DNA from: a bacterium
Lineage (GTDB): Bacteria; Elusimicrobiota; Elusimicrobia; UBA1565; UBA9628
Assembly (NCBI GenBank): GCA_021783355.1
Contig: JAJXTZ010000003.1
Location: 1 to 41,018 of the forward strand
Length of the DNA stretch: 41,018 nucleotides
Reading direction: 5' to 3'
Part shown: in pieces, positions 2,926 to 25,481 of the stretch
Position numbering within the stretch: position 1 is the stretch's first letter
Layout of the letters: each line of letters begins with the position of its first letter
The notes under the pieces: model-generated
The model's database searches: none
What the model was told of the DNA's origin: nothing
The model's input: only the letters and a program-made list of their open reading frames with translations
Translations under genes and position numbers: made by a program

Positions 2926-2948
2926 CAGAGGGTCGTCCGCATGCGCCG

Positions 2949-3758: not shown

Positions 3759-3762
3759 GGGG

Positions 3763-4251
3763 TCAGCTCTGGACCTTGTCCACCAGCGCGAAGGTCATCG
3801 TGGCCTCGGCGGCGAGCTTGCCGTCCACATACGCTTCGCCGCGGAACTTGCCGGCGCGGCCCAGGCGCAGGATCTCGATGTGGTGCTTAAGCACGCAGCC
3901 GGGCAGGACGGGGCTTCGGAACTTGGCCTCGTCGATGCCCATGAAGAAGGCGACCTTGCCCTCGATGCCGCCCTTGGAGAGCAGCATCGCGCAGGCGGTC
4001 TGCGCCATCGACTCCACGATCAGCACGCCCGGCATCACCGGCTGGCCGGGGAAGTGGCCCTCGAAGAAGTGCTCGTTGGCGGTCACCATCTTGGTGCCGA
4101 CGCAGTACTTGTCCTCCTGGATCACGTCGATCTTGTCGACGAGCAGGAACGGGTAGCGGTGCGGGATTGCCTTCTTGACGCCGGCTGTGTCCAGCGAGCG
4201 GACGGGGGCGGCGGCGAACGGATTCGTGGTCGCGGTGGTGTCGGTGCTCAT
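3763..4251 (-). CDS. fabZ: 3-hydroxyacyl-[ACP] dehydratase FabZ
   Basis: IPHRYPFLLVDKI...NEHFFEGHFPGQPVMPGVLIVESMAQTA hot-dog fold motifs. Confidence 0.96.
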   Translation of the reverse strand: MSTDTTATTNPFAAAPVRSLDTAGVKKAIPHRYPFLLVDKIDVIQEDKYCVGTKMVTANEHFFEGHFPGQPVMPGVLIVESMAQTACAMLLSKGGIEGKVAFFMGIDEAKFRSPVLPGCVLKHHIEILRLGRAGKFRGEAYVDGKLAAEATMTFALVDKVQS

Positions 4252-5138: not shown

Positions 5139-6214
5139 CGAGCCTTCTCCTGGGGGGCGGCCTCGCCGCCCGTCCCGAGCTTCTTTTCCAACGCCTTCAG
5201 GCGCTCGACGATCTCCGGGAGCCTCCCGTAGAGCGCCTGCAGCTTGAAGGCCTCGCGGTGAGGGCGGCCGGGAGAACCGAAGAGGGTGGTGCGCGGGGGC
5301 ACGTCGCTCATCACGCCGGTCTGGGCCGTGATGATCGCGCCGTCGCCGATGGTCAGGTGACCGGCGACGCCGGCCTGCCCGGCCAGGATCACGTTGTTGC
5401 CCACGGTCGTGGAGCCGGCGATGCCGGTCTGCGAAACGACGAGGCAGTCGCGGCCGATCTTCGCGTTGTGTCCGAGCTGGACCAGGTTGTCGATCTTGGC
5501 GCCGGGCCCGATCACCGTGGAGCCGAGGGTCGCGCGGTCGATGGTCACGTTGGCGCCGATCTCGACGTCGTCGTTGATCACCACGTTGCCGATCTGGGGG
5601 ATCTTCGTGTGGCGGCCCGTCTTGCGGTCGGTGGTGAAGCCGAACCCGTCGGAGCCGATCACCGTGCCGGAGTGGACGATCGCGCGGGCGCCGAGCACGC
5701 ACTCCTCGCGCACGACGACCTGTGGGTAGAGGAGCGCGTCGCGCCCGATCTTGGCGCCGCGGCCGACATAGACCTGGGGCAGCAGGGTCGCGCCGTCTCC
5801 GATCTCCGCTCCAGCCTCGACGACGCAGAAGTCGCCGACGCGCACGCCCTTGCCGAGGCGCGCTCCAGGGTGGACGGAGGCCTTCGCGCTGATCCCCGCG
5901 GGGATCTCGGCGCGCTGGGCGGCGTCCACCAGGCCCAGCAGGACCGCGAAGGCGGCCTGGGGGTCCGCCACGACGACTTTGGCCTTGGCCGCGCACGGGG
6001 CGTCGGCCGCCTGGGGCGGGACCAGCAGGCAGCCCGCGGGGACCTGCGCGGCGGCGGCCGCGTACTTCATGTTGTGCAGGGAGGCGGCGTCCTTCGGGCC
6101 GGCCCCGGCGACCTCGCTGACGGCCTCGATCACGAGGCTCTTGTCGCCGACGACGCGGCCGCCCACCAGCGCGGCGATCTCGGCGACGGTCTTGGGCTCG
6201 GGAAGCGGCATCAT
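5135..6214 (-). CDS. lpxD: UDP-3-O-(acyl)glucosamine N-acyltransferase (LpxD)
   Basis: 359 aa; N-terminal LpxD domain followed by hexapeptide repeats, [10 protein letters not shown]...[49 protein letters not shown]. Confidence 0.96.
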
Positions 6215-7086
6215 GGCGCGGGGCTCCGTTCCAGTTCGGCGAGGACCTTGTCGGTCAGGTCCATCGCGGGATGTCCGTAGAGCAGAGACGATTTGTCGAT
6301 GACGACGCTGACGCCCTCGCGCTTGGCGACCGCGCCGATGGCGCGGTAAAGGCGGGCGAGGACGCGGTCGGTCTTGCGTCCCTCGGCGGCGAGGAGATCC
6401 TTGTCGGCGCCGTCGTGGACCTGCGAGAGCTCGGTCTCCTTGGAGGCGATCTCCGCCTGCAGGGCCAGGATCTTGGCGTCGAGCGCGAGGAGCTGGTCGG
6501 CTTTGCCCTTCGGGGGGGCGGAGGCCGCGGGCGACGCGGCCGCGGCGCTGGAGACGGCGACGGGCGCCGCGGCGGCGGGCGCCGTCGCGCTGGACGCGGA
6601 CGGGGGCGCCATCGGCGCGGAGACGTCCGGGGTCATCCCCGGGAGGGCGAGGGCGCCGGTGGAGAGCGCGAGGGCGGGCGCGGAGGAGGCGGCGACGGCG
6701 TCGGGCGCGGCGGGCGTGGAGACGGACACATCTGCGGGAGCGGGCGCGGCGGCGGTGGAGGCGGCGATGGGAGCCGGAGCGGCCGGGACGGCCGGGGTCT
6801 CCGGGGCCGCGGCCAGGGCCGCGCGCTCGGCGCGGGAGGCGTCCAGCTCGCGCCCGAGTTTCAAGAGCTCGGCCTTGCGCAGGTTGACGCGCTCCTCGGC
6901 CTGGCGGATCAAGTCTTGAAAGCCCTCCTTGGCCTTCTGGGCGTCGGGACTGGAGTCGAAGAGGCGCTGCATGTCCACGAAGCCGACGCTGCCGCTCTCG
7001 GCGCGGTTCTCCTCCAGGGAGAGCTCGATGGCGCGCACCGGGGCGGCCAGGAGCAGGACGGCGAAGGCGGCGAGGATCGTTTTCAT
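6211..7086 (-). CDS. OmpH/Skp-family periplasmic chaperone with a long Ala/Pro/Ser insert
   Basis: Signal peptide [19 protein letters not shown], then [49 protein letters not shown] and C-terminal [33 protein letters not shown]; between them about 100 aa of low-complexity A/P/S. Confidence 0.85.
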
Positions 7087-9569
7087 CAGAAGAGAGGACC
7101 GAGGCCGAAGTTGATCTGGTAGAGCTTCTCGCCCGGGCGGTGATTGAGGCCGTAGCCGTAGTCGAGGCGGATGGGGAAGGCGGGCGTCACGAAGCGCAAG
7201 CCCAGGCCGACGTCCGACTTGAGGTCCCGGGTGTCTCCGCCCATGCGCAAGGTCATGTCGCCGGGCGTGTTCCAGGCGCCGCCGATGTCGAAGAACGCGA
7301 CCAGCTTGACGATGCTGCGGTGGTGCTCGCGCGCGAGCGGGGCGCCGAACTCGAGGTTGGCGACATCGTAGATCGTGCCGCCGTTCGGGAAGCCGGCCTC
7401 TCCGGACGGGGAGTAGCCGCGCAGGGAGTCCTGCCCGCCGATGTAGAAGCGGTCCTGGACCGCCACGCTCTTGGAGCGGCCGAACTCGGTGATGTAGCCG
7501 CCGCGGTTGAACATCGACAGCACGAACGGCCACTCGCCCCAGTTGAACATCGTCCAATGGGCCTGGTTCGACACGTATGGCTTGAAGAAGTCGATGTCGC
7601 CCATCAGCGGGCCGCCGGACAGCTGGACCCCGATGGAGTTGCGCGTGCCGTGGGTCGGGTCCCAGATGCTGTCGCGGGTGTCGCGCGCCAGCTCCGCGCC
7701 GAGCAGGGATTGGACGCTGGTCCCGGGCGTCAGCGCGCCCTGGAAGTCGACGTTCGGGTCGATGCCGTCGATGGCGATCTTCTGCAGGGTGTAGGTGAAG
7801 TTCAGCTGGTACTTGTCGTCCTGGAAGCGGGGCCCGACGCGGATGCTGCCGCCGGTCCGGTGCTCGGTGTAGGCGGCCAGGTCGCCCTGGAACGGGTTGA
7901 TGCGGCGGGTGTGGAACGCGTCGAAGCCGAGGCTGATGGGCTTGTCGTCCACCCAGGGGGTGGTCCAGCTCACCGAGTAGTCCTGCACGCGCTTGCCGAA
8001 CGACCACTGCAGGGACACGCGCTGGGCGCGGCCCAGGAAGTTCAGGTGCTGGACGGACAGGGTGCCGATCAGTCCGTCGATGGACGAGTAGGCCGCGCCG
8101 GCGGTCAGCATGCCGGGCTTGCCCTCGGTCACGTCGAAGTCCATGTCCACCTTGTTCGGGTCCTCGGCGGACGGCTGGAGGTCCACGTTGACCTCGTCCA
8201 TGAAGCCCAGGTTCATGATCTTCTCGCGGCTCTTGCGCACGCGCGCGGCCGAGAAGCGCTCGCCGGGCTTGACGATGATCTCGCGCTTGATCACGTAGGT
8301 CTTGGTGGCCTTGTTGCCGTCCACGTCCACGTGGTCCACATAGGAGACCGGGCCCTCGACGATGTCGAAGCGCACGTTCATGCGGTCGGTCTTGGGATCG
8401 AACGACTTCTCGGGGATCACGCGGGCGCGCAGCCGTCCCACGTCGGCGTAGAGCTCTTGGACCGAGCGGATGGTGTCGTCGAACTGGCCCTGGTTGAAGA
8501 CCTTGCCCGGCCGGTAGTCGACCGCGTGGTAGAGCTCGGAGGAGGTCAGGACCAGGTACCCGGAAAAAGTGGTCTCGCCGAACCGGTACGAGCGGCCCTC
8601 GTCGACGCCGAGGGCGATCGAGATCCGGGACTTGTCGGGAGAGAGGGTCACAAGCGGCGTGCTCACGCGCACGTCCAGATAGCCGTTGTTCTTGTACTCG
8701 TCCACGATCTTCTGGACGTCCTCGTCCAGGTCCTTCTGGACGTAGACCTTCTTGTAGCGGTTCTTCATCAGCCCCAGCAGCTTCTTGGGCTTGAAGGCCT
8801 TGACTCCGGAGATCTCGACCAGGGAGATGCGGGACTTGGGGCCTTCCTGGATCTTGAAGGTCAGGTCCGCCTTCGACGCCGCGGTGTCGATCGAGACCGA
8901 GAAGTCCACCGTCGCGTCCAGGAAGCCCCTCTCGCGGTACTTGTCCACCAGCTTCTGGCGCGCCTCGTCGGCCTTGAACTGGTCGTACGGGTCGTATTCC
9001 TTGATGGAGATCGCGTCGGCCAGGACGCCTTTGGAGATGCCCTTCTCGCCCTCGAAGAGGATCTTGCGCAGGATCGGCTTCTCCTTGACCATGAAGGTCA
9101 GGCGCACCTCGCGGTCGGTGCCGGCGGTCTTGAGGAGGCGCTCGGGAACGGGCTTGTCCAGCAGGGTGAGCTCGGCGCCCACGCGCTCGAATTGGCCCAA
9201 GCCGAGCAAGGATTGGATGTCGCGGTCGAGGTCCGGCCGGTCGTAGAGGTCGCCTTTGCGGGCCTTGATCTGTCCCCGGATCGTGGACATGCGCACGTTC
9301 TTGAGGCCTTTGGCGTCGATGTCGCCCAGCACCCAGGGGCGGGGCACGATCCCGGCGGGCAGGCTCTGCGGCGCGGGCGGCGACCAGGGCGCCGTGGACA
9401 GCCCGGGGAGGGCGGCGGGGGCGGAGGACATGGACGGCGCGCCCGCGAAAGCGGAGGTCGAGGCCGCGGGCGGGGCCGCGTCCGGGACCGGCCCCGACGA
9501 GACCGTCTGGGCTGAAGCCGAAGACGCCAAAACCACCGCGGCGAGAGCGCTCATGAGGAGCCTTTTCAC
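7086..9569 (-). CDS. bamA: Outer membrane protein assembly factor BamA
   Basis: 827 aa; signal peptide, POTRA repeats, C-terminal surface-antigen barrel ([13 protein letters not shown]...[10 protein letters not shown]...[11 protein letters not shown]). GTG start. Confidence 0.95.
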
Positions 9570-9579
9570 CGGAAGCTGG

Positions 9580-9590
9580 AGTATATCAAA
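9580..9590 (-). promoter_or_regulatory. Extended -10 promoter upstream of bamA (near-leaderless)
   Basis: Minus strand reads TTTGATATACT, then 10 nt, then the GTG start of bamA. Confidence 0.6.
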
Positions 9591-9607
9591 TCGGACGGCG
9601 TCCGAGC

Positions 9608-9636
9608 GGAAAAGAGGAGGGCCCCTTGCGGGGCCC
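9608..9636 (-). terminator. Intrinsic terminator of the inositol-phosphate synthase operon
   Basis: Minus strand GGGCCCC-GCAA-GGGGCCC (7-bp stem, 4-nt loop) followed by TCCTCTTTTCC, 43 nt past the stop of the 9679-11073 CDS. Confidence 0.75.
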
Positions 9637-9678
9637 GCCTTTCCTTATAACTTCACTGATGGCGGCGGACGGCCGGAC

Positions 9679-11073
9679 TCAGCGCGCCGATTTGGCCAGG
9701 GACTTCTTCTTCGCCGCCGGCTTGGGGGCCGCCGCCGTCACCGGAGTCCCCTTCTCGGCGTCGTAGTAATCCAGGCCGGAGTGGTCCAGGACTTCCTCCC
9801 CCATGAGGATGCGCAGGGTGTTCTTGAGCTTCATCTGCTGGATGAACAGGTCGTGCTCGGGCAGCAGGTCCTCGCGGCATTGCGGGGACTTGAAGAAGAA
9901 GGACAGCCACTCCTGGATCCCCTTGAGCCCCGCGCGCTTGGCCAGGTCCAGGAAGAGGACCAGGTCCATCGCGATGGGCGCCGCCAGGATGGAGTCCCGG
10001 CAGAGGAAGTTGATCTTGATCTGCATCGGCATGTCCATCCAGCCGCGGATGTCGATGTTGTCCCAGCCTTCCTTGGCGTCGCCGCGGGGCGGGTAATAGT
10101 CGATGCGGACCTTGTGGTGGAACTTGCCGTAGAGGTCCGGGTAGCGGCCGGGCTCCAGGATGGTGTCGAGCACCGACATCTTGCTCTTCTCCTTGGTCTT
10201 GAAGGAGCCCGGGTCGTCGAGGACCTCGCCATCCCGGTTGCCCAGGATGTTGGTCGAGTACCAGCCGGTCAGCCCCAGCATGCGGGCCTTCAGCATCGGC
10301 GCGATCGTGGTCTTCATCAGGGTCTGGCCGGTCTTGAAGTCCTTGCCGCAGATGGGGGAGCCGGTCTGCTCGGCCAGTTCCACCAGGGCCGGCACGTCGG
10401 CCGACAGGTTCGGCGCCCCGTTGCCGTACGCGATGCCCGACTTGATGGCCGCGTACGCGTAGATCATCGACGGCGGGATCGCGGGGTCGGAGTCCTTGAG
10501 GCCGCGCTCGAGGGCCTCGACATCCTCATGGCAGGCCGCGTGCTCGGGCAGGATCTCGGTGGACCCGCACCACAGCATCACGACGCGGTCGCAGCCGTTC
10601 TTCTTCTTGAACGACTCGATGTCGGCGATCACCTGCTGCGCGAGGTCCCACTTGGACTTGCCCGTCTTCGCGTGCGTGGCCTTCAGGTTCTTCAGGTACG
10701 CGGGGTCGAACACGGCCTTCATCGGCTTGACGGCTTCCAGCTCCTTGCGGACCGGAGCCAGACGGTGCTCGTCGAGGACGCCGGCCTTGAGCGCGGCCGT
10801 CCACATGTCGTCGGGGAACAGGTCCCAGCCGCCGAAGACCAAGGAGTCGATCGAGGCCAGCGGCACGAAATCCTTGATCAGCGGCGAGCGGTTCTCGTAG
10901 CGCTTGCCGAGACGGATGGTCTGCAGCTGGGTGACGGAGCCCACGGGCTTGCCGAGACCCTTCTTGACGAGCTCCACGCCCGCGATGAAAGTGCTGGAGA
11001 CCGCCCCCATGCCCGGGAGCAGGACGCCGAGCTTTCCTTTAGCGGGCGGGATGCGGTTGTCGTGCTTGTTCAT
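9679..11073 (-). CDS. myo-Inositol-1(3)-phosphate synthase family protein
   Basis: 464 aa; KLGVLLPGMGAVSSTFIAGVELV, ICGKDFKTGQTLMKTTIAPMLKARMLGLTGWYSTNILGNRDGEVL...SFKTKEKSK match the MIPS family core. SD-like AGGAG upstream of ATG 11073. Lys/Ala-rich tail (PKPAAKKKSLAKSAR). Confidence 0.88.
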   Translation of the reverse strand: MNKHDNRIPPAKGKLGVLLPGMGAVSSTFIAGVELVKKGLGKPVGSVTQLQTIRLGKRYENRSPLIKDFVPLASIDSLVFGGWDLFPDDMWTAALKAGVLDEHRLAPVRKELEAVKPMKAVFDPAYLKNLKATHAKTGKSKWDLAQQVIADIESFKKKNGCDRVVMLWCGSTEILPEHAACHEDVEALERGLKDSDPAIPPSMIYAYAAIKSGIAYGNGAPNLSADVPALVELAEQTGSPICGKDFKTGQTLMKTTIAPMLKARMLGLTGWYSTNILGNRDGEVLDDPGSFKTKEKSKMSVLDTILEPGRYPDLYGKFHHKVRIDYYPPRGDAKEGWDNIDIRGWMDMPMQIKINFLCRDSILAAPIAMDLVLFLDLAKRAGLKGIQEWLSFFFKSPQCREDLLPEHDLFIQQMKLKNTLRILMGEEVLDHSGLDYYDAEKGTPVTAAAPKPAAKKKSLAKSAR

Positions 11074-12235
11074 GTTCGTTGACTCTCCTGAGGTACAGCA
11101 TGATCCCGAAATAGAGCAGCCCGCCGATCGCCGCGGCCCACAGGAACTCGTAGACGCAGTCCACGAAGGCGAGGAAAACCAGAAGATAGATGAAGTCGCG
11201 CTGGGCGAGCATGTTCTCGAGGCGGGCCAGCCGGGTCTCGAAGCCGCCGAGCGCGGGCTCCTCGGTGACGCCGGCCTCCGAGCGCGCGCCCGCGGCGCGG
11301 AGGGCCAGGCGGTGGCTCCAGGCGGTCCAGGCGGAGACGAAGACGCCGAGGTCGGCCACGGCGGCCAGCGCCAGCGTGTGCGGGCCGTTGCGGCCGAGCC
11401 AGAAGCCGACGCCCAGGCAGGTGAAGAGCGCGAGGTGGACGACGTTGTCGCCCCAGAAGTCGAGGTCGCTGCCCAGCGGGCTCTCTTGGAAGCGAACGCG
11501 GGCCAGCTCCCCGTCGCAGCCGTCCAGCACGGAGTGCAGCCAGACCAGCAGGGCGCCCGGCACGTACCACGCGCGCGACGGGCCCAGGAACAGGGCGGCC
11601 CCGATCAGGCCGAGCAGGGTGCTGAAGACCGTCATCGCGTTGGGGGTCACGCCGGTGTCGAGGAGGAGGCGCGAGACGGACAGCGAGATGTGACGGTCGA
11701 AGTTGCGGGCCATGAAGCCGTCCTGGCTCTTGGGGCCGGTGGCCATCAGCCAATCCACCGTCTCCTCCCCGCCGACCGGAGCCTCCAGGCGCCGGTAGGT
11801 CCCGGGGGCCAGGACCTGCTTGGACCGGGTCGTGCTCTCGTCGCGGGAGACGACCGCCTGGATCACGCCGAGGCCCGCGTCGTCCTCGTAGGAGACCGAC
11901 TGGCCGAAGGACTGGCGCGCGACGTGGGCGAGGGCGTCCACGCGCACGAAATGGTCGCCGGAGAGTCCCAGGTAGGGCGGCTCGCAGGCGACGAGCGCGT
12001 CGCCGTCCCGGGACACCCAATGCACCGTCAGGCCGGGCGGCACGCGCAGGCCGGCGCGCAGGGCGGGGTCGGGCTCGTGGGTGCCGACCCAGACGCTCGT
12101 GATCCCGGCGCGCGCGGCGGTGAAGAGCTGGCGCTCGAGCACGCCGAGGCCGCCCGCCTTCAGCCACATCAGGGACGGGTGGGGGACCCAGAGGATCGCG
12201 CGCGGGATGCGCGCCGGGGCCGCGGCCTCAGGCAT
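11039..12235 (-). CDS. CDP-alcohol phosphatidyltransferase with nucleotidyltransferase-like (IPCT-like) N-terminal domain
   Basis: 398 aa; CDP-OH-P signature DGCDGELARVRFQESPLGSDLDFWGDN (DGx2ARx8Gx3Dx3D) followed by TM segments; layout KSQDGFMARNFDRHISLSVSRLLLDTGVTPN resembles bifunctional IPCT/DIPP synthases. Confidence 0.85.
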   Translation of the reverse strand: MPEAAAPARIPRAILWVPHPSLMWLKAGGLGVLERQLFTAARAGITSVWVGTHEPDPALRAGLRVPPGLTVHWVSRDGDALVACEPPYLGLSGDHFVRVDALAHVARQSFGQSVSYEDDAGLGVIQAVVSRDESTTRSKQVLAPGTYRRLEAPVGGEETVDWLMATGPKSQDGFMARNFDRHISLSVSRLLLDTGVTPNAMTVFSTLLGLIGAALFLGPSRAWYVPGALLVWLHSVLDGCDGELARVRFQESPLGSDLDFWGDNVVHLALFTCLGVGFWLGRNGPHTLALAAVADLGVFVSAWTAWSHRLALRAAGARSEAGVTEEPALGGFETRLARLENMLAQRDFIYLLVFLAFVDCVYEFLWAAAIGGLLYFGIMLYLRRVNEHEQARQPHPAR

Positions 12236-13214
12236 GGGCCGCCTCCCGCGCGCCGTAGGCCGCGCGGATCGTCTCCAGGCAGAAGCCGGCCTCGTCGAGA
12301 TTGGCGCCGCGGTCCGCGCCGGCGCACTCGGCCGCGAAGGCGGGCCACATCGCCGCCAGCCAGTCGGGGTGGGCGGACCCTCCCGAGAGCCTCTCCGGGA
12401 AGCGGACCGTCTCCTCGTGCCCGCCGGAGCGCAGGATCAGCTCGTCGTCGCGCAATTCGGCGGCTCCCTTCTCGCCGACGACCAGCGCGGAGTTCGAGCG
12501 TTCGGCGGCCTTCCAGGTGAGGAAGATCGTGCCGCTCGCGCCGGGCGCTTCGAGCAGGACCGTCGCGGTCTCGTCGACGGAGTCCGCGGGGGTCAGGACG
12601 GCCGAGGACAGGCGGGCCCCGGCCCCCAGCAGGCGCCGCATCAAATACAGATTGTGCCAGCCGTGGTCCACCAGGATGCCGCCCCCGGCCACCGCCGGGT
12701 CCTTGCGCCAGTCCCCGGGCAGCGCCGAGACCGACGGCCGCGTGCGCAGGACGCGGATCTCGGCGTGGCGCACCGCGCCGAGGGCGCCGGAGGCCGCGGT
12801 CTTGAGCAGGAGCGACCACTGCGGAGAATGGGCCCAGTTGTTGACCGAGTAGGCGCAGACGCCGCGCTTGGCGGCCTCGGCGCGGATGGCGGCGTACGCC
12901 TCCGGGTCCAGAGTCAGCGGCTTCTCGCAGAGGACGTGCAGCCGCGCCTTGAGCCCGTCCAGCACGGCGCCGGCGTGGAACGACGGCGGGGTGGCGACGA
13001 TCAGGGCTTCCAGGCCCTTCTCCTTGGACAGGAGGTCCTTGTGGCCGGCGTGGACGCGGACTCCGGGCAGGAGCTTGGCCGCCGCCTGGCGGCGCGATTC
13101 CGTCGCCTCGGCGACCGCGACGATCTCGACCCCGAGCCCGCGCAGGGCGGGCAGATGGGCGTGCTCGGCGATCGCTCCGAAACCGACGAGGCCGACGCGG
13201 CGGGGACCGCTCAG
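12228..13214 (-). CDS. Gfo/Idh/MocA family dehydrogenase (probable CTG start)
   Basis: Frame extends upstream of the annotated GTG (12965): SGPRRVGLVGFGAIAEHAHLPALRGLGVEIVAVAEA... (Rossmann), then HVLCEKPLTLDPEAYAAI. The only plausible start before the Rossmann fold is CTG at 13214, overlapping the upstream TGA. Confidence 0.8.
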   Translation of the reverse strand: MSGPRRVGLVGFGAIAEHAHLPALRGLGVEIVAVAEATESRRQAAAKLLPGVRVHAGHKDLLSKEKGLEALIVATPPSFHAGAVLDGLKARLHVLCEKPLTLDPEAYAAIRAEAAKRGVCAYSVNNWAHSPQWSLLLKTAASGALGAVRHAEIRVLRTRPSVSALPGDWRKDPAVAGGGILVDHGWHNLYLMRRLLGAGARLSSAVLTPADSVDETATVLLEAPGASGTIFLTWKAAERSNSALVVGEKGAAELRDDELILRSGGHEETVRFPERLSGGSAHPDWLAAMWPAFAAECAGADRGANLDEAGFCLETIRAAYGAREAAHA

Positions 13215-14554
13215 AGGCCGCGCCTCCGGCTCACGGCGTCGAGGGACTCGTCGAGAAGGGCCAGGCCCTTCAGGGCGTCCGTCTCGGAGATCACCAGCGG
13301 GGGGTTGATGCGCAGCGACGGGTTGTAGGCCATCGTGAGGACGCCGCGCTTGAGGCCCTCCTCGAAGATCTCGCGGCAGACCGCCTTGTCGAGCGGCTTG
13401 CCGTCCTTCGGGTTCACCAGGTCCACGCCGATCATCAGGCCTCGGCCGCGGACCGAGCCGATCGCCGGGCGCTTCGCCTTCATCTCGGTCAGGCGCTTGA
13501 GCATCGCGGCGCCGACCTTGGCGGCGTTGTCGACGAGCTTGTCGCGCAGGATCACCTGCAGCGTCGCGTCGCAGGCGGCGGAGGCCAGCGGGTTGCCGCC
13601 GTAGCTCGACGAGGAGCCCGAGGGGTTCGCCCAGGGCTTGGCGGAGGCGAGCTCGGTCGAGGCGACGACGCCGGAGACGGGGAAGCCCCCGCCGAAGCCC
13701 TTGCCGATCGTCATCATGTCGGGGATCACTCCCTCGTGGTCGCAGCCGAACATCTTCCCGGTGCGGCCGAAGCCGGTGATCATCTCGTCGGAGACGAACA
13801 CGGCGCCGATCTCCTTGGCGAGCTCACGCACGCCCTTGAAGAAGCCGGCCGGCGGGATCACGTTGCCGTTGGTGCCTTGGACCGGCTCCATGATGACCGC
13901 GGCGACCTGTCCGGTGGTCTCGCGCTTGATCTTCTCGCGCAGGAACTCCAGGCAGTGCGCGCCGCAGTCGTGCTCGCCCTTGGTCCCCAGCGGGCACTTG
14001 CGCGCGTCGGGGTACGGGGACAGGTGCAGGCCCGGCATCATCGCGCCGTAGTTGTTCTTGAAGCCGTCGTTCAGGAGGCCCATGACGCCCATCGTCTTGC
14101 CGTGGAAGCCGCCCCAGAACCCGATCACCTCGTACTTGCCGGTCTTGGACTTGGCCAGGCGCAGAGCGGCCTCGACGGCCTCGGCGCCGGAGCTGTAGAG
14201 CTGGCAGCGGTCGAGCCCCTTCGGGGTCACCGAGGCCAAGGTCTTCAGGAAGTTCAGGCGGTGCGCCGAGGTGAAGGAGCCCACCGCGGTCTTGGCGGCC
14301 TGCTCGGCGACGGCCTTGGCCCAGTCCGGGTGGCCGTAGCCCAGCGACGCCACGCCGATGCCGGCGACGAGGTCCAGGTAGGTCTTGCCGTCCAGGTCGC
14401 GGATCGTCGCGCCGGAGCCGGACTCGACGGCGATCTGCGCGTAGAGCGCGATCGTCTGCAGACCGGGGGCGATATACCCCTGCTCCTCGTCGAACAGGGC
14501 CTTCGATTTGGGTCCGGCGGAATAAGGCGTCTCGGCGAGAGTCTGCGGGGTCAT
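13211..14554 (-). CDS. Class III (fold type I, PLP) aminotransferase
   Basis: 448 aa; DLDGKTYLDLVAGIGVASLGYGHP, SSGAEAVEAALRLAK, VSDEMITGFGRTGKMFG and PLP-Lys region MMTIGKGFGGGFPVSG. Confidence 0.92.
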   Translation of the reverse strand: MTPQTLAETPYSAGPKSKALFDEEQGYIAPGLQTIALYAQIAVESGSGATIRDLDGKTYLDLVAGIGVASLGYGHPDWAKAVAEQAAKTAVGSFTSAHRLNFLKTLASVTPKGLDRCQLYSSGAEAVEAALRLAKSKTGKYEVIGFWGGFHGKTMGVMGLLNDGFKNNYGAMMPGLHLSPYPDARKCPLGTKGEHDCGAHCLEFLREKIKRETTGQVAAVIMEPVQGTNGNVIPPAGFFKGVRELAKEIGAVFVSDEMITGFGRTGKMFGCDHEGVIPDMMTIGKGFGGGFPVSGVVASTELASAKPWANPSGSSSSYGGNPLASAACDATLQVILRDKLVDNAAKVGAAMLKRLTEMKAKRPAIGSVRGRGLMIGVDLVNPKDGKPLDKAVCREIFEEGLKRGVLTMAYNPSLRINPPLVISETDALKGLALLDESLDAVSRRRGL

Positions 14555-14556
14555 GG

Positions 14557-15399
14557 TCAGGCCTTCCTTGCGGCCGCCTGGCGCAGGCGGGCGCGCAGGC
14601 GGCGGGCGATCTGGACCGAGGCCTCGGCGCGCACGCGCGCGAAGCTCGGCCACGAGTTGATGTCGATGATATAAATCTTTCCATCGGGAGCGACGATCGC
14701 GTCGCCGCCGTAGACCTCCAGGCGGACGCACGAAGCGGCGAGCTCCGCCTGCGAGGCCAGGTCCTCCACCTCGAACGGCAGGCGGCGGGCGACGGAGGGG
14801 TCGTGATAGAACCAGGTGAACCACTGGCCCGGGCCGACGCCGTAGAACTTGATCAGGTCGCCGTCGATGTGGCGCTGAACGGCCATGTCCTTGATCTCGC
14901 GGCTCTCGAACTCGCGGCGGATCTCCCGCGCCTCGTCCCAGTCGGGCGCGAAGACGACGTCGTGAGTGCAGGTGTTGTGCACGTCGCCGCGCTTGAGCCA
15001 CCAGCCGCCCTCGGCGTCGAAGGCCGGGGGGCGGGCGTTGGCGTCGGCGGAGGTGCGCCGCACCTCGGTCGCGGGGTAGGACAGGCCGGGGGTCGCGGCG
15101 AAGGACTCCAGCATCCGGGTGCGGTAGCAGCCCAGGACCGAGTCCGCCGGGTTGACGAAGACGGCCCCGGTCTTGGGCTCCAGGGTCTTGAGCCGCATCA
15201 GGCGGGGGTAGGTCTCGCACATCGGCACGATGATGTCGAATCCGGCCAGGTCGGCCCCGTCGAACGCCTCCGGGGTCATCAGGACCGTCTCGGTCTTCAG
15301 GATCGAGAGCTGGTCCATCACGGCCTTGAGGATCAGGGCGTCGTCCGTCTCGCGGTTGGGCGAGTTCTGGACCTCACGGAAGATTCCGAGCGCTTTCAT
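14557..15399 (-). CDS. ATP-grasp fold protein, possibly inositol-phosphate-kinase (ITPK)-like
   Basis: 281 aa; WWLKRGD (candidate ATP-binding Lys), AVQRHIDGDLIKFYGVG and C-terminal DAIVAPDGKIYIIDINSWPSF typical of ATP-grasp metal/nucleotide-binding strands. Confidence 0.7.
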   Translation of the reverse strand: MKALGIFREVQNSPNRETDDALILKAVMDQLSILKTETVLMTPEAFDGADLAGFDIIVPMCETYPRLMRLKTLEPKTGAVFVNPADSVLGCYRTRMLESFAATPGLSYPATEVRRTSADANARPPAFDAEGGWWLKRGDVHNTCTHDVVFAPDWDEAREIRREFESREIKDMAVQRHIDGDLIKFYGVGPGQWFTWFYHDPSVARRLPFEVEDLASQAELAASCVRLEVYGGDAIVAPDGKIYIIDINSWPSFARVRAEASVQIARRLRARLRQAAARKA

Positions 15400-16106
15400 C
15401 GTGTCTTCTCCGTCGCCAGGTAGGCGTCCGCGGCCGCCACGTCCTCCGGGCGGTCCACGTCCAGCGTCTTGGACAACGCGACTCCGGCCACGCGCGTCCC
15501 CGAGGAGACGAGCGCGCGCCAGAAGTCGCGCAGCCGGCCGTGCGCCGCGGCCTCGGGGAGGCGCGCGGCGGCGGCGCGGGTCAGGTAGTAGAGCCCGCCG
15601 GTCACGCGGCGGCGGGTGCGGGCGTCGTCGCCCACGGCGGTCACCAATCCGGCCTCGTCGAGGTCCGCCCAGAGGGGCTTCTCGTCGTCGACGTGGTCCG
15701 TCAGGGCCAGGCCGGCCTCGGCGCGCGCGGCGCGGCACTCGTCCCAGAAGCGCCGGACGTCGGTGGCGGGCAGCAGAGCGTCCGCGGTGCTGACCATGAA
15801 ATCGTCGCCGCGCTCGGCCAGGCGCCGCGAGACCAGGCGGAAGCTCTCGAACGACGAGGCGGTGTCGGCGCTGACGAAGTCGAAGGCGAGGTCCGGGAAG
15901 GCGGCCGCCAGGCTGGGCGGGATCGCCCCGCCGTGTCCGTTGGTCAGGACGGTGAGCTCGCGCGCGCCCGCCGCGGCCAGGCCCGACGCGACCCAGTGGA
16001 TCAGCGGCCGCCCGGCGACCGGGACCAGGGGCTTGGGGAGGCCCGGATGGCTCGCGGCGAGGCGCGAGCCCCGGCCCGCGGCGATGACGCCGGCGCGCAG
16101 GCTCAT
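15396..16106 (-). CDS. NTP-sugar/polyol nucleotidyltransferase
   Basis: 237 aa; AGVIAAGRGSRLAASHPGLPKPLVPVAGRPLIHW, the intact GxGxR...KPL signature of NTP_transferase enzymes. Confidence 0.88.
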   Translation of the reverse strand: MSLRAGVIAAGRGSRLAASHPGLPKPLVPVAGRPLIHWVASGLAAAGARELTVLTNGHGGAIPPSLAAAFPDLAFDFVSADTASSFESFRLVSRRLAERGDDFMVSTADALLPATDVRRFWDECRAARAEAGLALTDHVDDEKPLWADLDEAGLVTAVGDDARTRRRVTGGLYYLTRAAAARLPEAAAHGRLRDFWRALVSSGTRVAGVALSKTLDVDRPEDVAAADAYLATEKTR

Positions 16107-16768
16107 GAGAGGAGGGCCTCCAACTCGACGACGGAACGCACGGTCCAGTCCTGGCCTGCCGCGGGAGGCTCGGGATCGATGCTGACCAGGGCCGTTTTCA
16201 TGCCCGCCGCGACGGCGCCCCTCATGTCGCGCTTGACCGAGTCGCCAACCATCATGCACTCGGCGGGAGCGGCGTCCAAGGCGCGGGAGGCGTGGAGGAA
16301 TATCCCCGGCTCGGGCTTGACGACCCCGAGGACCCCGGAATCGGCCACCACGGAGAAAAGGTCGCGCAGGCCTTCGGCGCGAAGGATCCCGTCGAGGTTC
16401 CCGTAGAAATTCGACACGACCCCGAGCCGGTAGCGCGCCGTCAGGCGCTCGAGCACCGGGCGCAGGCGGCGGAACTGCCCGCGGCTGTCCGCGGCGAAGC
16501 GTCCGGCGATCGCGCCGGCCAGGGGCGCGCGCTGCGGCGCCAGCGCGGCCAGGACATCGCCGACCTGGAGGCGCAAGGTCTCTTCCAGGTCCAATCCGGC
16601 CAACGCGTGACGGGCGGGGAGGGCGTCGTCGGAATCGTAAAAGGCGCGGTCGAAGCGGTCGCGGGGGAGGTCCACGCCGTTCTCTTTATAGATCGGGTAG
16701 AAGCGTTCCAACCATGTGGACCCGTCGGCGTCCAGCGTCCCGCCGTAATCGAAGAGGACCGCCTTCAT
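16103..16768 (-). CDS. HAD-superfamily hydrolase
   Basis: 221 aa; MKAVLFDYGGTLDADG, GVVSNFYGNLDGIL, KPEPGIFLHASRALDAAPAECMMVGDSVKRDMRGA (HAD motifs I-IV). Confidence 0.92.
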   Translation of the reverse strand: MKAVLFDYGGTLDADGSTWLERFYPIYKENGVDLPRDRFDRAFYDSDDALPARHALAGLDLEETLRLQVGDVLAALAPQRAPLAGAIAGRFAADSRGQFRRLRPVLERLTARYRLGVVSNFYGNLDGILRAEGLRDLFSVVADSGVLGVVKPEPGIFLHASRALDAAPAECMMVGDSVKRDMRGAVAAGMKTALVSIDPEPPAAGQDWTVRSVVELEALLS

Positions 16769-19754: not shown

Positions 19755-22045
19755 ACCGAGCCAAGGACGGCCTGCGGGAGACGACCATGACCACGCGTGA
19801 CCTTTTGAAGAAGACGACGGCGGCGCTGCTCGCGGCGGCGCTGCTCGTCCCGCAAGGGGCCGTCGCCGCGGCCGCGGCCGAGGCGGCCGCCCCGGTCAAG
19901 AGCGCCGCGAAGCCCGCGGCGGTCAAGGCCGGCCCGGTCCTTGCCGTCTACGACGGCGTCGCGGTGAGCGACGACTTCGTCGCCGTCCGTCTGAGCAGCG
20001 CGGTGCCCTACAACAGCTTCCTGACCCGCACCCCTCCCCGCCTGGTTCTGGAGCTCCTCGACACCAGGCACGCGGCGAGGGTCCGTTCCGTCCCCGGCAA
20101 GGGCAAGTACCTGCTCCGCGTCCGCTCGGCGCAGTTCGAGCGCTCGCCGCGCATGATCACCCGCGTCGTGCTGGACCTGGCCCGCCTGGCGGGCTACAAG
20201 GTCGAGGCGATGAAGGGCGGCCTCGGCGTCCGGCTGATCGGCGGCGCGGACGAGGCCTCCGCGCCCGCTGCGGCGGCGAAGACGGCGGCCGCCCCGGTCG
20301 CCGCGCCGGAACCGACGGCCGCATCGCGGCCGGCGTCCATCCTGACGAAGCCGGCGCCCCAGCCGGCCGTCGCCCGCGCGCCCGCTCCGGTCCCCGCCGC
20401 CAAGCCGACGGCGGCCGCTCCGGCGATCGCGCCCAAGCCCGTGGCCGCCGCTCCCAAGCCCAAGCCCGCGCCCGCCGTCGCCCGCGCGGCGGCTCCCGCG
20501 CGTCCCGTCGTGAAGATCCCGGCGCCGGTTCGGGAACCCGCGGCCGCGGCGCCCGCGCCGAAGCATCCTCGCGACGGATCCGCGATGGCGGCGTTCCGCC
20601 GCGCCGGTCTCGTCGGGCGCATGAACACCGAGCTGGCCGCGGCCGTCCAGGCCGAGGACGCCAGCAAGGGGGCGGTCAAGATCCCGGCCGGGGACGATTC
20701 CAGTTCCGAGGGCGAGCGCCGGCTCGGCGGCCGCATCTACCGCGACCTGCTCAGCCGCCTGCCGAAGGACCGGGTCTCCCTGGACTTCGACAACACCGAC
20801 ATCCGCGACGTCCTCAAGCTGATGGCGGCCAAGGCGCGCATCAACATCATCTACGGCCCGGACGTCACCGGAACGCTCTCCCTGCACCTGACGCGCGTCC
20901 CCTTCGACGACGCCTTCCGCACGGTCCTGTCCATGATGGGGCTGACCACCGACCAGGTGGGCAGCAGCGTCCTGCGCGTGATCACCCCCGCGGCCCTGAC
21001 CGCGCAGCGCACCTCCGGGAGCGCGATCACGAAGGTCATCCCGCTCAACTACGCGAAGGCCTCGGACGTGAAGACGACCATCGACCAGGTGCGCACGGCC
21101 GAGGGGCGCACCGGCTCCTCGAGCGTGGACGCGAAGACCAACTCGATCATCGTGACCGAGTCGCTGGAGGGGCTGGCCGCCACGCAGAACCTCATCGCCC
21201 AGCTCGACCAGCGGCCGCGCCAGGTCCTCATCGAGGCCAAGCTCATCGAGGTCAACGAGAACTCCGGCTTCAACTACGGCATCCAGTGGGACGCCTTCAG
21301 CCAGGAGTCGGGCGCGATCGGCGGCAAGCAGGGCACCACGCTGATCGGATCGTCCGCGGGCCTCATCGGCCCGGCGCTCAACAACCCGCTCAACGGGAAC
21401 GCGATCCAGACCAACGTGACCGCGGCCGGCGGCGTCGGGGCCGGCGGCCGGGGCACCGGCGTGAACCTGGCCGCGGACAAGATCTTCGGCGCGCTGACCT
21501 TGGGCCGGATCACCAACAACTACCTGCTCAACGCGACCATCACGGCCGCGGCCTCGGAGGGCAAGGCCAAGGTGCTCTCGGACCCGAAGATTACCACCCT
21601 CAACAACCAGGCGGCCAACATCAACGTCACCACGCAGATCCCGTACGTGACCTCGAACGTGGCCTCGACCGGGGTGACGACCCAGCAGGTCTCGTACGTG
21701 ACGACCGGCATCCAGCTGACGGTGACGCCCAGCATCAACGCCGACGGGCGCATCCTGCTGCAGATCAACCCGAACGTCAGCCAGCCGTCGGTCACCGCCG
21801 CGGGCAGCTCGCTCACCGGCGCGCCGGCCGTGGACTCGCGCAACGCCAACACCACGGTCCTCGTGCGCGACGGCGAGACCATCGTCATCGGCGGCTTGAT
21901 CAGCGACAGCCTGCAGGACACCATCGCGAAGATCCCGCTCCTCGGGGACATCCCGATCCTGGGCTGGCTCTTCAAGAAAAAGTCCAAGACTCGCGTGCGC
22001 AACGAGCTGCTGATCTTCGTCACGACGCGCATCCTCCCCGACTGA
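19751..22045 (+). CDS. pilQ: Type IV pilus secretin PilQ with AMIN domain and Ala/Pro/Lys linker
   Basis: 764 aa; AMIN-like N-terminus, A/P-rich linker, secretin N domains (VSLDFDNTDIRDVLKLMAAKARINIIYGPDVTGTLSL) and secretin core (VLVRDGETIVIGGLISDSLQDTIAKIPLLGDIPILGWLFKKK). Confidence 0.95.
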   Translation: MNRAKDGLRETTMTTRDLLKKTTAALLAAALLVPQGAVAAAAAEAAAPVKSAAKPAAVKAGPVLAVYDGVAVSDDFVAVRLSSAVPYNSFLTRTPPRLVLELLDTRHAARVRSVPGKGKYLLRVRSAQFERSPRMITRVVLDLARLAGYKVEAMKGGLGVRLIGGADEASAPAAAAKTAAAPVAAPEPTAASRPASILTKPAPQPAVARAPAPVPAAKPTAAAPAIAPKPVAAAPKPKPAPAVARAAAPARPVVKIPAPVREPAAAAPAPKHPRDGSAMAAFRRAGLVGRMNTELAAAVQAEDASKGAVKIPAGDDSSSEGERRLGGRIYRDLLSRLPKDRVSLDFDNTDIRDVLKLMAAKARINIIYGPDVTGTLSLHLTRVPFDDAFRTVLSMMGLTTDQVGSSVLRVITPAALTAQRTSGSAITKVIPLNYAKASDVKTTIDQVRTAEGRTGSSSVDAKTNSIIVTESLEGLAATQNLIAQLDQRPRQVLIEAKLIEVNENSGFNYGIQWDAFSQESGAIGGKQGTTLIGSSAGLIGPALNNPLNGNAIQTNVTAAGGVGAGGRGTGVNLAADKIFGALTLGRITNNYLLNATITAAASEGKAKVLSDPKITTLNNQAANINVTTQIPYVTSNVASTGVTTQQVSYVTTGIQLTVTPSINADGRILLQINPNVSQPSVTAAGSSLTGAPAVDSRNANTTVLVRDGETIVIGGLISDSLQDTIAKIPLLGDIPILGWLFKKKSKTRVRNELLIFVTTRILPD

Positions 22046-22049
22046 GCGC

Positions 22050-23516
22050 GTGCTCGCGGTCCTGGTCGGCGTCCAGCTGGCGGCGGGACTGCTGCTGCGG
22101 GGCGCCTGGGACCTGTGGGCGCAGTCGGCCGTCCTCCTCCTGCTGATCGCCGGGACGGCCGTCTGGCTGATGCTGGGCTTGGCGCGCGGGCGCGTCCCGC
22201 TGCCCTCCTCGCGGCCGGCGGCGTGGGCCGCCGCGTTGATCCTGCTGTCCCTCGTCTCGGCGCGCTTCGGCGCCGTCCCCGTCTACTCCCTGCCCGCCTG
22301 GGCCGCGGCGGCGGCGGGGCTGTGGCTGATCCCCGCGGCGACCCTCTTGTCGCCGCGCGACCGCGACTGGGTCGAGGAGGCGGTGCGCGCCGCCGCGTGG
22401 CTGCTGGTCCTTCTGGCCGTCTATCAGCGCCTGCACGGCGAGCCGCGTCCGCCGTCGGCTCTGCTCAATCAGAACGTCTTCGCCGGAGCGATCCTGCTCC
22501 TGCTCCCGGTCTCGGTGCGGCGGGGCGACGGCTTCCTCGCCGCGGGCCTGCTGCTCTGCCTGTGGTGGACCCGCTCGGTCGGGGCGTGGCTCGGGCTGGC
22601 GGGGGCGCTGCTCCTGCACCGCCGCGCGGTCGGGGCGGCGGCGTTCTGGGCCGGCGCGGCGGCCGGTCTCGCCGGCCTCATCGCGGCGTACGCCAAGCTC
22701 CAGTCCCCCGAGGTCCTCCATCGCCTGGCCTGGTGGTCCGCGGCCTGGCGGATGTCGGCGGGAGCGCCGTGGCTGGGCCTGGGACCCGGGTCCTACGCCT
22801 ATGCCCTGCCCGCCTTCGTCGCCGTGCGCCCGGAGCTGTATTCGCTGTTCGCCCATCAGCATTTTCTCGAGACCGCGGCCGAGCGGGGCTGGCCGTATCT
22901 TCTTCTCTGGGTCGCGGGGCTGGCCGCCCTCCTGCGCCGGGCGGAGCCCGGCAAGCGCTTCGGGCCGGTCGCGATCCTGATCCACGGCCTCTTCGACTAC
23001 GCCCTGAGCGTGCCCGGCGTCTTCTGGCTCTTCTGCCTGTCCTTGGCCTGGTCCCTGCCGCAGTCGAACGAGGCCGAGCCGCTGCGCGCCGGGCGCAAAT
23101 TGCCGGCGGCCGCGCTGACCCTCTTGCTCGCCGTCGGGGCGTCGTCGTGGGTGCTGGGCAACTGGCGCGCCGACCGCCTGCGCGCGCGCGCCGCGGCGGC
23201 CCTCTCGAGCGGAGGCGACCCCGCGGCGGCGGAGGCGGACCTGCGCGCCTCCGAGGCCGTGCGTCCGGACCCGGAGGCATCGCGCCTGCTCGCGATCCTG
23301 GCGCTGTCGCGCGCCGCGCGCAGCCCCGAGCCGCGCCGCGACTTGGAGAGCGCGGCCGGGGACTTGGAGCGCGCCGCGGCGCTGGATCCGTACCGCGCGT
23401 CCAATTGGAGCCTCCTGGAGGCCGTGTACCGCAAGATGGGCCGCCCGGGCGCCGCGCGCGAGGCCCTCGAGCGCGGCGCGCGCACCTGTCCGTCCCTGCG
23501 CGCGGAAGGGGCATGA
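22050..23516 (+). CDS. O-antigen ligase/polymerase (Wzy_C-type) membrane protein with C-terminal repeat (TPR-like) region
   Basis: 488 aa multi-TM; WLGLGPGSYAYALP...LFAHQHFLETAAERGWPYLLLW matches the Wzy_C pattern; C-terminal helical repeats (LERAAALDPYRASNWSLLEAVYRKMGRPGAAREALERG). GTG start. Confidence 0.82.
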   Translation: MLAVLVGVQLAAGLLLRGAWDLWAQSAVLLLLIAGTAVWLMLGLARGRVPLPSSRPAAWAAALILLSLVSARFGAVPVYSLPAWAAAAAGLWLIPAATLLSPRDRDWVEEAVRAAAWLLVLLAVYQRLHGEPRPPSALLNQNVFAGAILLLLPVSVRRGDGFLAAGLLLCLWWTRSVGAWLGLAGALLLHRRAVGAAAFWAGAAAGLAGLIAAYAKLQSPEVLHRLAWWSAAWRMSAGAPWLGLGPGSYAYALPAFVAVRPELYSLFAHQHFLETAAERGWPYLLLWVAGLAALLRRAEPGKRFGPVAILIHGLFDYALSVPGVFWLFCLSLAWSLPQSNEAEPLRAGRKLPAAALTLLLAVGASSWVLGNWRADRLRARAAAALSSGGDPAAAEADLRASEAVRPDPEASRLLAILALSRAARSPEPRRDLESAAGDLERAAALDPYRASNWSLLEAVYRKMGRPGAAREALERGARTCPSLRAEGA

Positions 23517-25477
23517 GCCGCGAGGCCGGGCCCGGCCCGGAGGCCGTCGCGGCCGCGGCGCTGGCCGGGGCCGTCGCCCTCTTCTTCGCCCCGCTCTGGC
23601 TGGCCGGCCGCAGCCCGTTCTGGGGGGACCTGACCTACCTGCACCAGGCCTGGCGCGCGTCGCCGGCCCAGCAGATCCAGGCCGGGCGGCCGCCGCTGTG
23701 GGAGCCGTCCTTGTACCTGGGCATGCCGATGGCGGCCTCCCAGCAGGGCGGCCTGTTCTATCCGCTGACCGTGCTGTACTACCTCTTCGGCTTCGCGACG
23801 GCCACGGCTCTGTTCCAGGCCCTGCACTACTTCCTCGCCGCCTGGCTCACCGCGCTGTGGCTGCGCTCGCTGCGCCTGTCGTGGGGCGCCAGCGCCGGGG
23901 GCGGGCTCTCGCTCGCCTTCGGCGGGGTGATGATCAGCCGCCTGCCGTTCCTGAACCACCTGGCGGTCCTGGCCTGGGCGCCCGCGCTGGCCTTGCTCTT
24001 CCGCCGCCCGGCCGCTCTGGCCGGAGTCTTGTCGTTGATGTTCCTGGCGGGATATCCGGCGTTCCTGCCGGGCGCGGCGGCCGCGGCCTGGGGGCTGGCG
24101 CTGGCCCTGCGCGCGCGGGGCGCGCCAGGACCCGCGTCCTGGGCGCGGGCCTGGACCGGGGCCGCGGCGCTGGCTCTGGCGCTGTGCGCCGTCCAGCTCT
24201 GGCCCGCGCTGGAGCTGGCGCTGCGCTCGCACCGCGCGGCGGGGCTGGCTCCGGAGGAGATCCTGCGCTGGGGCTTCTCCCCGGCGGACCTGCGCCAATG
24301 GGTGTCTCCGTTCCTGGTTCCCCTCTCGCGCTTCCGCCCCGCCGTCGAGTGGTGGAAGTGCGTCTATCTCGGCCTCGCCGCTTCGGCCGCGGCCGCGTGG
24401 GGGCTGGCCCTCCTGCCGCGCCGCCGCGCGGCGGGACTGGCGCTCCTGCTGACGGCGACGGCCGTGCTCATCCTCGGCGGCTCCGACCCGCTCTCGCGTC
24501 TGCTGTGGACGGCGCCGGGCAGCCCCCTGCGCCTGGTGCGCTACCCGGGCAACCTGTCCTACCTGGCGCTGCTGCCGCTGGCCGCGCTCGTCGGCGCCGG
24601 GCTGTCGCGCGCGCGTCTCGCGCCGGCGTGGACCGCGCTGATGCTGGCGGAGTTGGCCGTGTTCGGCTGGCGCTCCACGCCGACCGCGCCGCGCGCCCTC
24701 TTCACCGACGCCGGGCCGCTGGTGCGCGACCTGCAGGCGCGCCAGGACGGAGCGCGCTACCTGATCTCCCCGCGCGCGCTGGAGGCCTCCCGCGGCCGCG
24801 GCGTCGCGGACTGGAAGACGCGCCTCTACGGCCTGACCAACGCGCCTTACCGCCTGCGTTCCGTCGGGAACTTCGGCGAGCCCTTGGTCCCGCAGTCGAA
24901 CTACGAGTTCATGGACCGCGTGTACCGCGCGCGGGACGCCGCGGAGGCGGCCGCGTGGATGCCGTGGGCGGGAGCCTCGCGCCTGCTCACCCCGGAGCCC
25001 CCGCCGCCCACGCCGCTGCTCGTCCCCGAGGGGCGCGAGCTCTGGAGCGTCTCGCGCTCCGCGCGTCCCGTCGCGCTGGCCTATCTGCTGTCCCCGGAGG
25101 CGGGCGCGGCCCTGCCCGCGGCCCTGCCCGCCGCCGCGCCGCGTCCCGAGGGCGCGCCGCTCGCCGAGGTCCGCCCGCGCGCGGACCGCTTTTCGGTCTC
25201 CGGGGAGGGCGCCGGCTGGGTCTTCCTCGCCGAGCCGCGCTATCCGGGCTGGCGGGCGACCCTCGAGACGCCGCGCGGCGAGGGTCGCGTCCGACCCCTG
25301 CCCGCCTTGGGGCCTTTCCAAAAAGTCCCCGTCCCCGAGGGGCCTTGGACCCTGCGCTTCCGGTACGATCCCGCGTCGTGGCGCGGCGGCGTCCTCGTCA
25401 CCCTGCTCGCGTTGCTGGCCTTCGGCGGGTATTGGTATGATGGCCTCGTTCGCGGCGACGCCGGCGCGATCATCTGA
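23513..25477 (+). CDS. YfhO-like multi-TM membrane protein (copy 1)
   Basis: 655 aa from ATG 23513; WGDLTYLHQAWRA...RPPLWEPSLYLGMPMAASQQGGLFYPLTVLYYLFG and C-terminal RYPGWRATLE...FRYDPASWRGGV are typical of YfhO-family proteins. Confidence 0.78.
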   Translation: MSREAGPGPEAVAAAALAGAVALFFAPLWLAGRSPFWGDLTYLHQAWRASPAQQIQAGRPPLWEPSLYLGMPMAASQQGGLFYPLTVLYYLFGFATATALFQALHYFLAAWLTALWLRSLRLSWGASAGGGLSLAFGGVMISRLPFLNHLAVLAWAPALALLFRRPAALAGVLSLMFLAGYPAFLPGAAAAAWGLALALRARGAPGPASWARAWTGAAALALALCAVQLWPALELALRSHRAAGLAPEEILRWGFSPADLRQWVSPFLVPLSRFRPAVEWWKCVYLGLAASAAAAWGLALLPRRRAAGLALLLTATAVLILGGSDPLSRLLWTAPGSPLRLVRYPGNLSYLALLPLAALVGAGLSRARLAPAWTALMLAELAVFGWRSTPTAPRALFTDAGPLVRDLQARQDGARYLISPRALEASRGRGVADWKTRLYGLTNAPYRLRSVGNFGEPLVPQSNYEFMDRVYRARDAAEAAAWMPWAGASRLLTPEPPPPTPLLVPEGRELWSVSRSARPVALAYLLSPEAGAALPAALPAAAPRPEGAPLAEVRPRADRFSVSGEGAGWVFLAEPRYPGWRATLETPRGEGRVRPLPALGPFQKVPVPEGPWTLRFRYDPASWRGGVLVTLLALLAFGGYWYDGLVRGDAGAII

Positions 25478-25481
25478 CCAC

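Follow-up and report, generated by a model that had tools for sequence, protein, structure and literature searches.

ATP-grasp inositol kinases are known from eukaryotes and have been reported in Lokiarchaeota, and among bacteria inositol lipids count as a rarity. The locus described here raises the question of whether a bacterial ATP-grasp enzyme, encoded in one operon with MIPS, phosphorylates an inositol species or acts as a ligase. The gene lies within a 41,018 nucleotide stretch of an Elusimicrobiota genome, which we refer to as the window. A preliminary description had placed it, correctly, at 14557–15399; we add that it is on the minus strand, with its ATG at 15399 and its TGA at 14557–14559.

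Organisation of the operon

The operon is transcribed from the minus strand in the order HAD, NTPt, ATP-grasp, AT, GFO, CDPOH and MIPS (Table 1). The preliminary description had assigned the ATP-grasp gene and MIPS to a shared operon, which was borne out. The start of NTPt overlaps the stop codon of HAD (ATGA), the ATG of the ATP-grasp gene overlaps the stop codon of NTPt, and two bases separate the ATP-grasp stop codon from the ATG of AT. No ATG, GTG or TTG was found near the 5′-end of the GFO reading frame (13211–13214, minus strand); its start is probably the CTG that overlaps the AT stop codon (CTGA). The same CTGA junction (TTGA in two) recurred in the same-genus relatives L045–L059 and suggests that this rare CTG start is conserved.

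Table 1. Genes of the operon in order of transcription, with positions in the window.
Gene	Position	Strand	Length (aa)	Remarks
HAD-family phosphatase (HAD)	16103..16768	-	221	First gene of the operon; Pfam PF00702, E 1.2e-19
Nucleotidyltransferase (NTPt)	15396..16106	-		Pfam NTP_transf_3, E 5.6e-12
ATP-grasp enzyme	14557..15399	-	280	Subject of this study; proposed (amino)inositol(-phosphate) kinase
Class-III PLP aminotransferase (AT)	13211..14554	-	447	Pfam Aminotran_3, E 2.1e-100
GFO/IDH/MocA dehydrogenase (GFO)	12228..13214	-		Pfam PF22725 and PF01408
CDP-alcohol phosphotransferase (CDPOH)	11039..12235	-		Pfam PF01066, E 3.2e-11
MIPS	9679..11073	-	464	Last gene of the set; Pfam PF07994, E 3.2e-96, and PF01658, E 6.9e-34

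NTPt is probably a CTP:(amino)inositol-phosphate cytidylyltransferase, judging from its similarity to IPCT. It matched IPCT over its full length in profile searches (4jd0, E 2.2e-12; 2xme, E 1.4e-10), with RmlA, MurU and others equally good, and IPCT 4jd0 was ranked fourth by Foldseek (TM 0.79/0.77), with sugar-phosphate nucleotidyltransferases scoring alike. The nearest NCBIfam model to GFO was inositol 2-dehydrogenase IolG (TIGR04380, E 5.7e-16), whose cut-off of 355 bits is far above the 58 bits reached. CDPOH retains the DG-x2-AR-x8-G-x3-D-x3-D motif and matched the IPCT/DIPPS model NF041135 (E 2.3e-20) and, in the PDB, 4o6m (E 1.3e-23) followed by PIP synthases. It also carries an extra N-terminal region of ~170 aa, which by eye looks like a degenerate nucleotidyltransferase domain (GVLERQLFTAARAGI...), comparable to IPCT-DIPPS fusions; the operon has its separate NTPt gene besides this possible domain.

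The ATP-grasp protein and its conservation

No Pfam or NCBIfam model scored above its cut-off for the ATP-grasp protein. Our literature searches, which covered open-licence papers only and do not thereby prove novelty, found no description of the gene. The AlphaFold2 model (pLDDT 96) has an ATP-grasp fold, and hundreds of PDB structures matched it strongly in Foldseek, those at the head of the list being ATP-grasp proteins throughout, which places the protein in this superfamily. Homologues were present in 45 of the 58 related genomes and at 198 places in a named genome collection, whose relatives of the window place it in Elusimicrobiota. Across 70 aligned homologues, drawn from several phyla, K136, R137, K184, Y186, G231, G232 and D233 were invariant, together with D246, N248, W250, P251, S252 and F253. 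The metal-binding residues D233, D246 and N248 are thus among the invariant positions, which fits the superfamily. The two motifs quoted in the preliminary description, VQRHIDGDLIKFYGVG and VYGGDAIVAPDGKIYIIDINSWPSF, were found letter for letter; given the homologues in 45/58 relatives and the residues invariant across 70 sequences, these motifs are not a chance resemblance.

Fold and profile comparisons

Foldseek ranked ArgX first for the ATP-grasp model (E 4e-15), followed by Ddl, RimK, maize ITPK1 (E 6e-13, TM 0.69/0.72) and PPIP5K2 (E 1.3e-12). As these five score alike, all within three orders of magnitude, the fold does not decide between kinase and ligase, and fold ranking was rejected as a judge of the two. 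A PDB search with the single sequence gave noise only. The best match in the PDB-wide profile searches was ITPK4 (7pup; E 0.0024, then 0.00096), with ITPK1 (2q7d) at E 0.056, then 0.0028, and RimK-type ligases at E 0.6–1.2. The Pfam ITPK and RimK models were about equal, matching 10/31 and 8/31 family members respectively (best E 0.0032 and 0.0034); the ten matches to ITPK (PF05770) were weak and did not reach its gathering threshold, and the window protein itself was not among them. Against small template alignments, hhalign scored RimK at 58 (94%), ITPK at 41, LysX at 30 and PPIP5K at 22. The queries behind the ITPK, PPIP5K and RimK templates proved near-identical to PDB chains, a confirmation that covered these three and not the Ddl template. 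PPIP5K, which the motif VKVYTVGP had suggested as the nearest relative, was rejected after scoring poorly in the profile–profile comparison.

The likeness to ITPK that the preliminary description had noticed is therefore real but weak, with ITPK4 and ITPK1 as the best PDB profile matches, and did not extend to membership of the family. That description had also named matches consistently to peptide ligases as the result that would refute its inositol-kinase reading; the matches from Foldseek, Pfam and the profile searches were mixed.

Catalytic motifs

Three motifs that separate inositol kinases from RimK/LysX ligases were read off the template alignments. The Arg of the D-x-R motif of the ligases is a Lys in ITPK and PPIP5K, and is the invariant Lys184 in the ATP-grasp protein. 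The metal motif, ExN in RimK and LysX and DxN in the kinases, is the invariant D246-x-N248. The Gly-rich loop of RimK (EGTQGIGV) is absent from the kinases, and the ATP-grasp protein has KRGDVHNTCTHDVVF in its place. An N-x-x-RGG motif, present in RimK and LysX, is missing as well. The protein is like the RimK/LysX/ArgX group in its fold, its similar length and its top Foldseek and hhalign matches, whereas none of the four features, N-x-x-RGG, the D-x-R Arg, ExN and the Gly-rich loop, is present.

Comparison with ITPK (PF05770) gave a different pattern. The ATP-grasp fold, the Lys in the (Y/F)KV(F/Y)VVG strand, the Asp and DxN metal ligands (DIN in ITPK) and the lack of a Gly-rich loop are shared, whereas the window protein is shorter, falls below the Pfam cut-off and lacks the His of the SH[EK]M motif (SHEM in human and SHKM in potato ITPK1). 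At the corresponding place, occupied by H146 in the window protein, homologues also have Y, F or other residues, and it is H141 and D147 that are conserved instead. The missing His argues that the protein is not a member of the ITPK family, and the protein has features of its own, a very different N-terminal motif (R-x4-SPN) and a conserved WPSF following DxN. As read from these alignments, the three catalytic motifs resemble those of ITPK/PPIP5K rather than RimK/LysX, and the protein is kinase-like without being an ITPK. The points against a kinase are the slightly better hhalign score to RimK (58 vs 41), the amino-acid ligase ArgX at the top of the Foldseek list and the unconserved ITPK His.

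Gene neighbourhood across phyla

The seven-gene set recurred in seven phyla, usually, not always, with MIPS. It was found in Elusimicrobiota, Methylomirabilota, Rokubacteria, Myxococcota, Thermodesulfobacteriota and Ignavibacteriota, as well as at one Bacteroidota locus; the completeness of the MAGs was uneven across the compared genomes. HAD adjoined in nearly all loci with sufficient flank, and AT was kept beside the ATP-grasp gene in most loci outside Bacteroidia.

The loci of Bacteroidia were organised as (MIPS)-NTPt-ATPgrasp-CDPOH-(membrane protein PF03706)-HAD. AT and GFO were absent from all 16 of these loci, ten of which belong to genomes chosen for their close relationship to a Sphingobacterium MAG, while NTPt was present in 16/16, CDPOH and HAD each in 15/16 and MIPS in 13/16. 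The Sphingobacterium locus L114 read MIPS-NTPt-ATPgrasp-CDPOH, and at L174 NTPt and the ATP-grasp gene were paired with no adjoining CDPOH or HAD. A search for an AT ortholog elsewhere in the tested Bacteroidia carriers found none, the best matches having at most ~41% identity compared with 52–53% in Ignavibacteria-type genomes. The members without AT formed essentially one clade in the ATP-grasp tree (its single unlabelled row, L114, is also without AT), and a change of activity between the two contexts is therefore possible.

Additional copies of the ATP-grasp gene were seen in two settings. Tandem pairs were present at Ignavibacteria-type loci (L118, 9986–11678; L122 and L124, around 9150–10828), with a third copy elsewhere in G059, one of these tandem-copy genomes. 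The pairs hint at two substrates or at two consecutive steps that need ATP. A second ATP-grasp locus occurred in the genus of the window (L055, 2525–3394; L056, from 10001). Its neighbours include CDPOH and a universal-stress-like gene, and at L055 also MIPS; HAD, NTPt, AT and GFO are missing. This paralogue was set aside in weighing the readings, since there is a 100-N scaffold gap in L055 and the genome it comes from is 73% complete.

Co-occurrence of ATP-grasp and NTPt in Bacteroidia

A single even sample of 395 genomes of Bacteroidia was searched with thresholds of E<1e-50 for the ATP-grasp protein and E<1e-20 for NTPt. Eight genomes carried the ATP-grasp gene (G058, G226, G292, G323, G352, G395, G470 and G491), and an NTPt ortholog was found in exactly the same eight. 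The chance of an identical eight is 7e-17 under independence, a figure that shared ancestry raises. The two genes were adjacent or nearly so in seven carriers; in G352 a stretch of ~5 kb with further genes separates them. MIPS was present in 6/8 carriers vs 31/395 genomes overall (Fisher p 3.6e-6), and 40 of the 42 ATP-grasp carriers searched had a MIPS-type match, two of these being weak. In G395 and G491 MIPS was not found and NTPt-ATPgrasp-CDPOH-HAD was kept. This gene set fits a salvage route that needs an inositol kinase, though the absence of MIPS may be a genome gap.

These results bear directly on the alternative offered in the preliminary description, a ligase acting on the amine made by AT. 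Such an amide- or peptide-type enzyme would join an amino acid or another acid to the AT product, giving an acylated aminocyclitol head group. It would agree with a fold and profiles that are no further from RimK/ArgX/LysX than from ITPK, and with the position of AT directly downstream of the ATP-grasp gene (the 2-base gap) and its conservation there in most loci outside Bacteroidia. However, as AT is absent from 16/16 Bacteroidia loci, the ATP-grasp enzyme cannot generally serve the AT product; Bacteroidia keep the gene without an AT ortholog, and it tracks NTPt perfectly (8/8). The invariant Lys for the D-x-R Arg, DxN for ExN and the lack of both the Gly-rich loop and N-x-x-RGG also argue against it. 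We consider a ligase unlikely.

Proposed pathway

An ATP-using enzyme tied to NTPt is most simply a kinase that makes the phosphorylated substrate of NTPt after HAD has removed the MIPS phosphate. On balance we favour the reading in which a lipid head group derived from inositol is made by the operon, with the ATP-grasp protein as the cyclitol kinase of the pathway; the catalytic assignments, the sequence of reactions and the resulting lipid are inferred from the gene set, conservation, the pairing with NTPt, the fold and the motifs. Gene context is the strongest evidence for a kinase acting on an inositol species; the three catalytic motifs and the ITPKs at the head of the PDB profile matches also speak for it, and AtITPK1, which phosphorylates the MIPS product Ins3P (PMC7618535), gives a precedent among ATP-grasp kinases. 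The idea of an inositol kinase put forward in the preliminary description thus gains strong support from the linkage to NTPt, CDPOH and HAD, with its catalysis still inferred, and loses its identification with the ITPK family.

MIPS would convert glucose 6-phosphate to inositol 3-phosphate, from which the HAD enzyme would strip the phosphate. Where present, as in the window organism, GFO would then oxidise the ring and the class-III AT would aminate it. The ATP-grasp enzyme would use ATP to convert the (amino)inositol to (amino)inositol phosphate, NTPt would convert this to CDP-(amino)inositol, and CDPOH would transfer the phospho-cyclitol to a lipid. In a variant of this scheme, the ATP-grasp enzyme would phosphorylate inositol 3-phosphate first and HAD would then remove the old phosphate, leaving a phosphate on another ring position. 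A pathway free of any kinase is chemically possible, because NTPt could use Ins3P directly.

The ATP-grasp enzyme might alternatively act late, on a lipid- or CDP-linked cyclitol, as a phosphoinositide-like kinase or head-group modifier with HAD as the opposing phosphatase. The minimal four-gene set NTPt-ATPgrasp-CDPOH-HAD, which retains both HAD and the ATP-grasp gene, would suit such a role, but the tightest co-occurrence is with NTPt, a soluble early step, and the L174 pair has no adjoining CDPOH or HAD, and we regard late action as improbable. Least probable of all is that the protein is a genuine inositol polyphosphate kinase of the ITPK type, whose soluble inositol phosphates would serve signalling and have no lipid role: ITPK4 and ITPK1 head the PDB profile matches and MIPS would supply Ins3P, which AtITPK1 phosphorylates (PMC7618535). 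Yet the gene is constantly linked to one resembling cytidylyltransferases and to one for a CDP-alcohol phosphotransferase, which points to head-group synthesis; the His canonical for ITPK is unconserved, and the PF05770 cut-off was not reached.

Comparison with known systems

In the CDP-inositol route of IPCT/DIPPS, which serves CDP-inositol lipid synthesis in Rhodothermus, the product of MIPS is used directly; the route is not known to involve an ATP-dependent kinase, an aminotransferase or a dehydrogenase. Like the window operon, it has an IPCT-related nucleotidyltransferase, a CDP-alcohol phosphotransferase and MIPS. The streptomycin-type inosamine pathway, which consists of MIPS, a phosphatase, StrI, StsC and the kinase StrN, follows the same logic of inositol phosphate, dephosphorylation, GFO oxidation, transamination and phosphorylation by ATP. 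It differs in the class of its aminotransferase and the fold of its kinase, and the window set adds CDP activation and a lipid transferase.

A putative alternative inositol lipid cluster has been described in Bacteroides vulgatus and Prevotella, proposed to act via CDP-inositol (Heaver et al. 2022, PMC9246714). It comprises an NTP transferase, a CDP-alcohol phosphatidyltransferase, a HAD hydrolase and MIPS, with a lysylphosphatidylglycerol-synthase-like membrane protein nearby (PMC9246714). The window and the Bacteroidia loci share the NTP transferase, CDP-alcohol phosphotransferase, HAD and MIPS with this cluster, whose make-up the Bacteroidia loci match, whereas the loci analysed here always pair an ATP-grasp gene with NTPt, and the window and six other phyla add AT and the dehydrogenase. 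The text of PMC9246714 contains no occurrence of an ATP-grasp gene. The B. vulgatus locus tags are spaced so as to leave a single unnamed gene between those for the NTP transferase (BVU_RS13095) and the phosphatidyltransferase (BVU_RS13105). In most of our loci the ATP-grasp gene occupies this slot, so that gene order predicts an ATP-grasp product for the unnamed gene. In favour of the lipid reading, S. spiritivorum is reported, as cited in PMC9246714, to make ceramide phosphoryl-myo-inositol, and the Sphingobacterium locus L114 has the ATP-grasp gene together with MIPS, NTPt and CDPOH.

The perfect pairing of the ATP-grasp gene with NTPt argues that the published Bacteroidetes scheme lacks a step, and we propose that the ATP-grasp enzyme is the component missing from it. 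More tentatively, and as a possibility short of a probability, a new bacterial family of ATP-grasp cyclitol kinases may both feed an unrecognised MIPS-derived phospho-aminoinositol membrane lipid in the window organism and several other phyla and complete the alternative route of Bacteroidia. That route is still unconfirmed, and with the ATP-grasp gene there is one gene whose knock-out could probe it in Bacteroidetes that can be cultured. Should the enzyme prove to be a kinase, ATP-grasp inositol kinases would be extended to bacterial lipid synthesis; the extension by AT and the dehydrogenase predicts a new class of aminoinositol lipid in little-studied phyla.

Surroundings of the operon

The inositol genes are followed on the same strand (1049–9569) by genes for BamA, OmpH/Skp, LpxD, LpxC, FabZ, LpxA and LpxI, arranged like an outer-membrane and lipid A operon; a second GFO/IDH/MocA gene also lies within this minus-strand group. 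Elsewhere in the window, the region 22001–32000 has a GC content of 75–78%, a strongly negative AT skew of about -0.2 to -0.4 and long plus-strand ORFs. It encodes an O-antigen-ligase-like protein and a glycosyltransferase, the remaining ORFs having no Pfam match.
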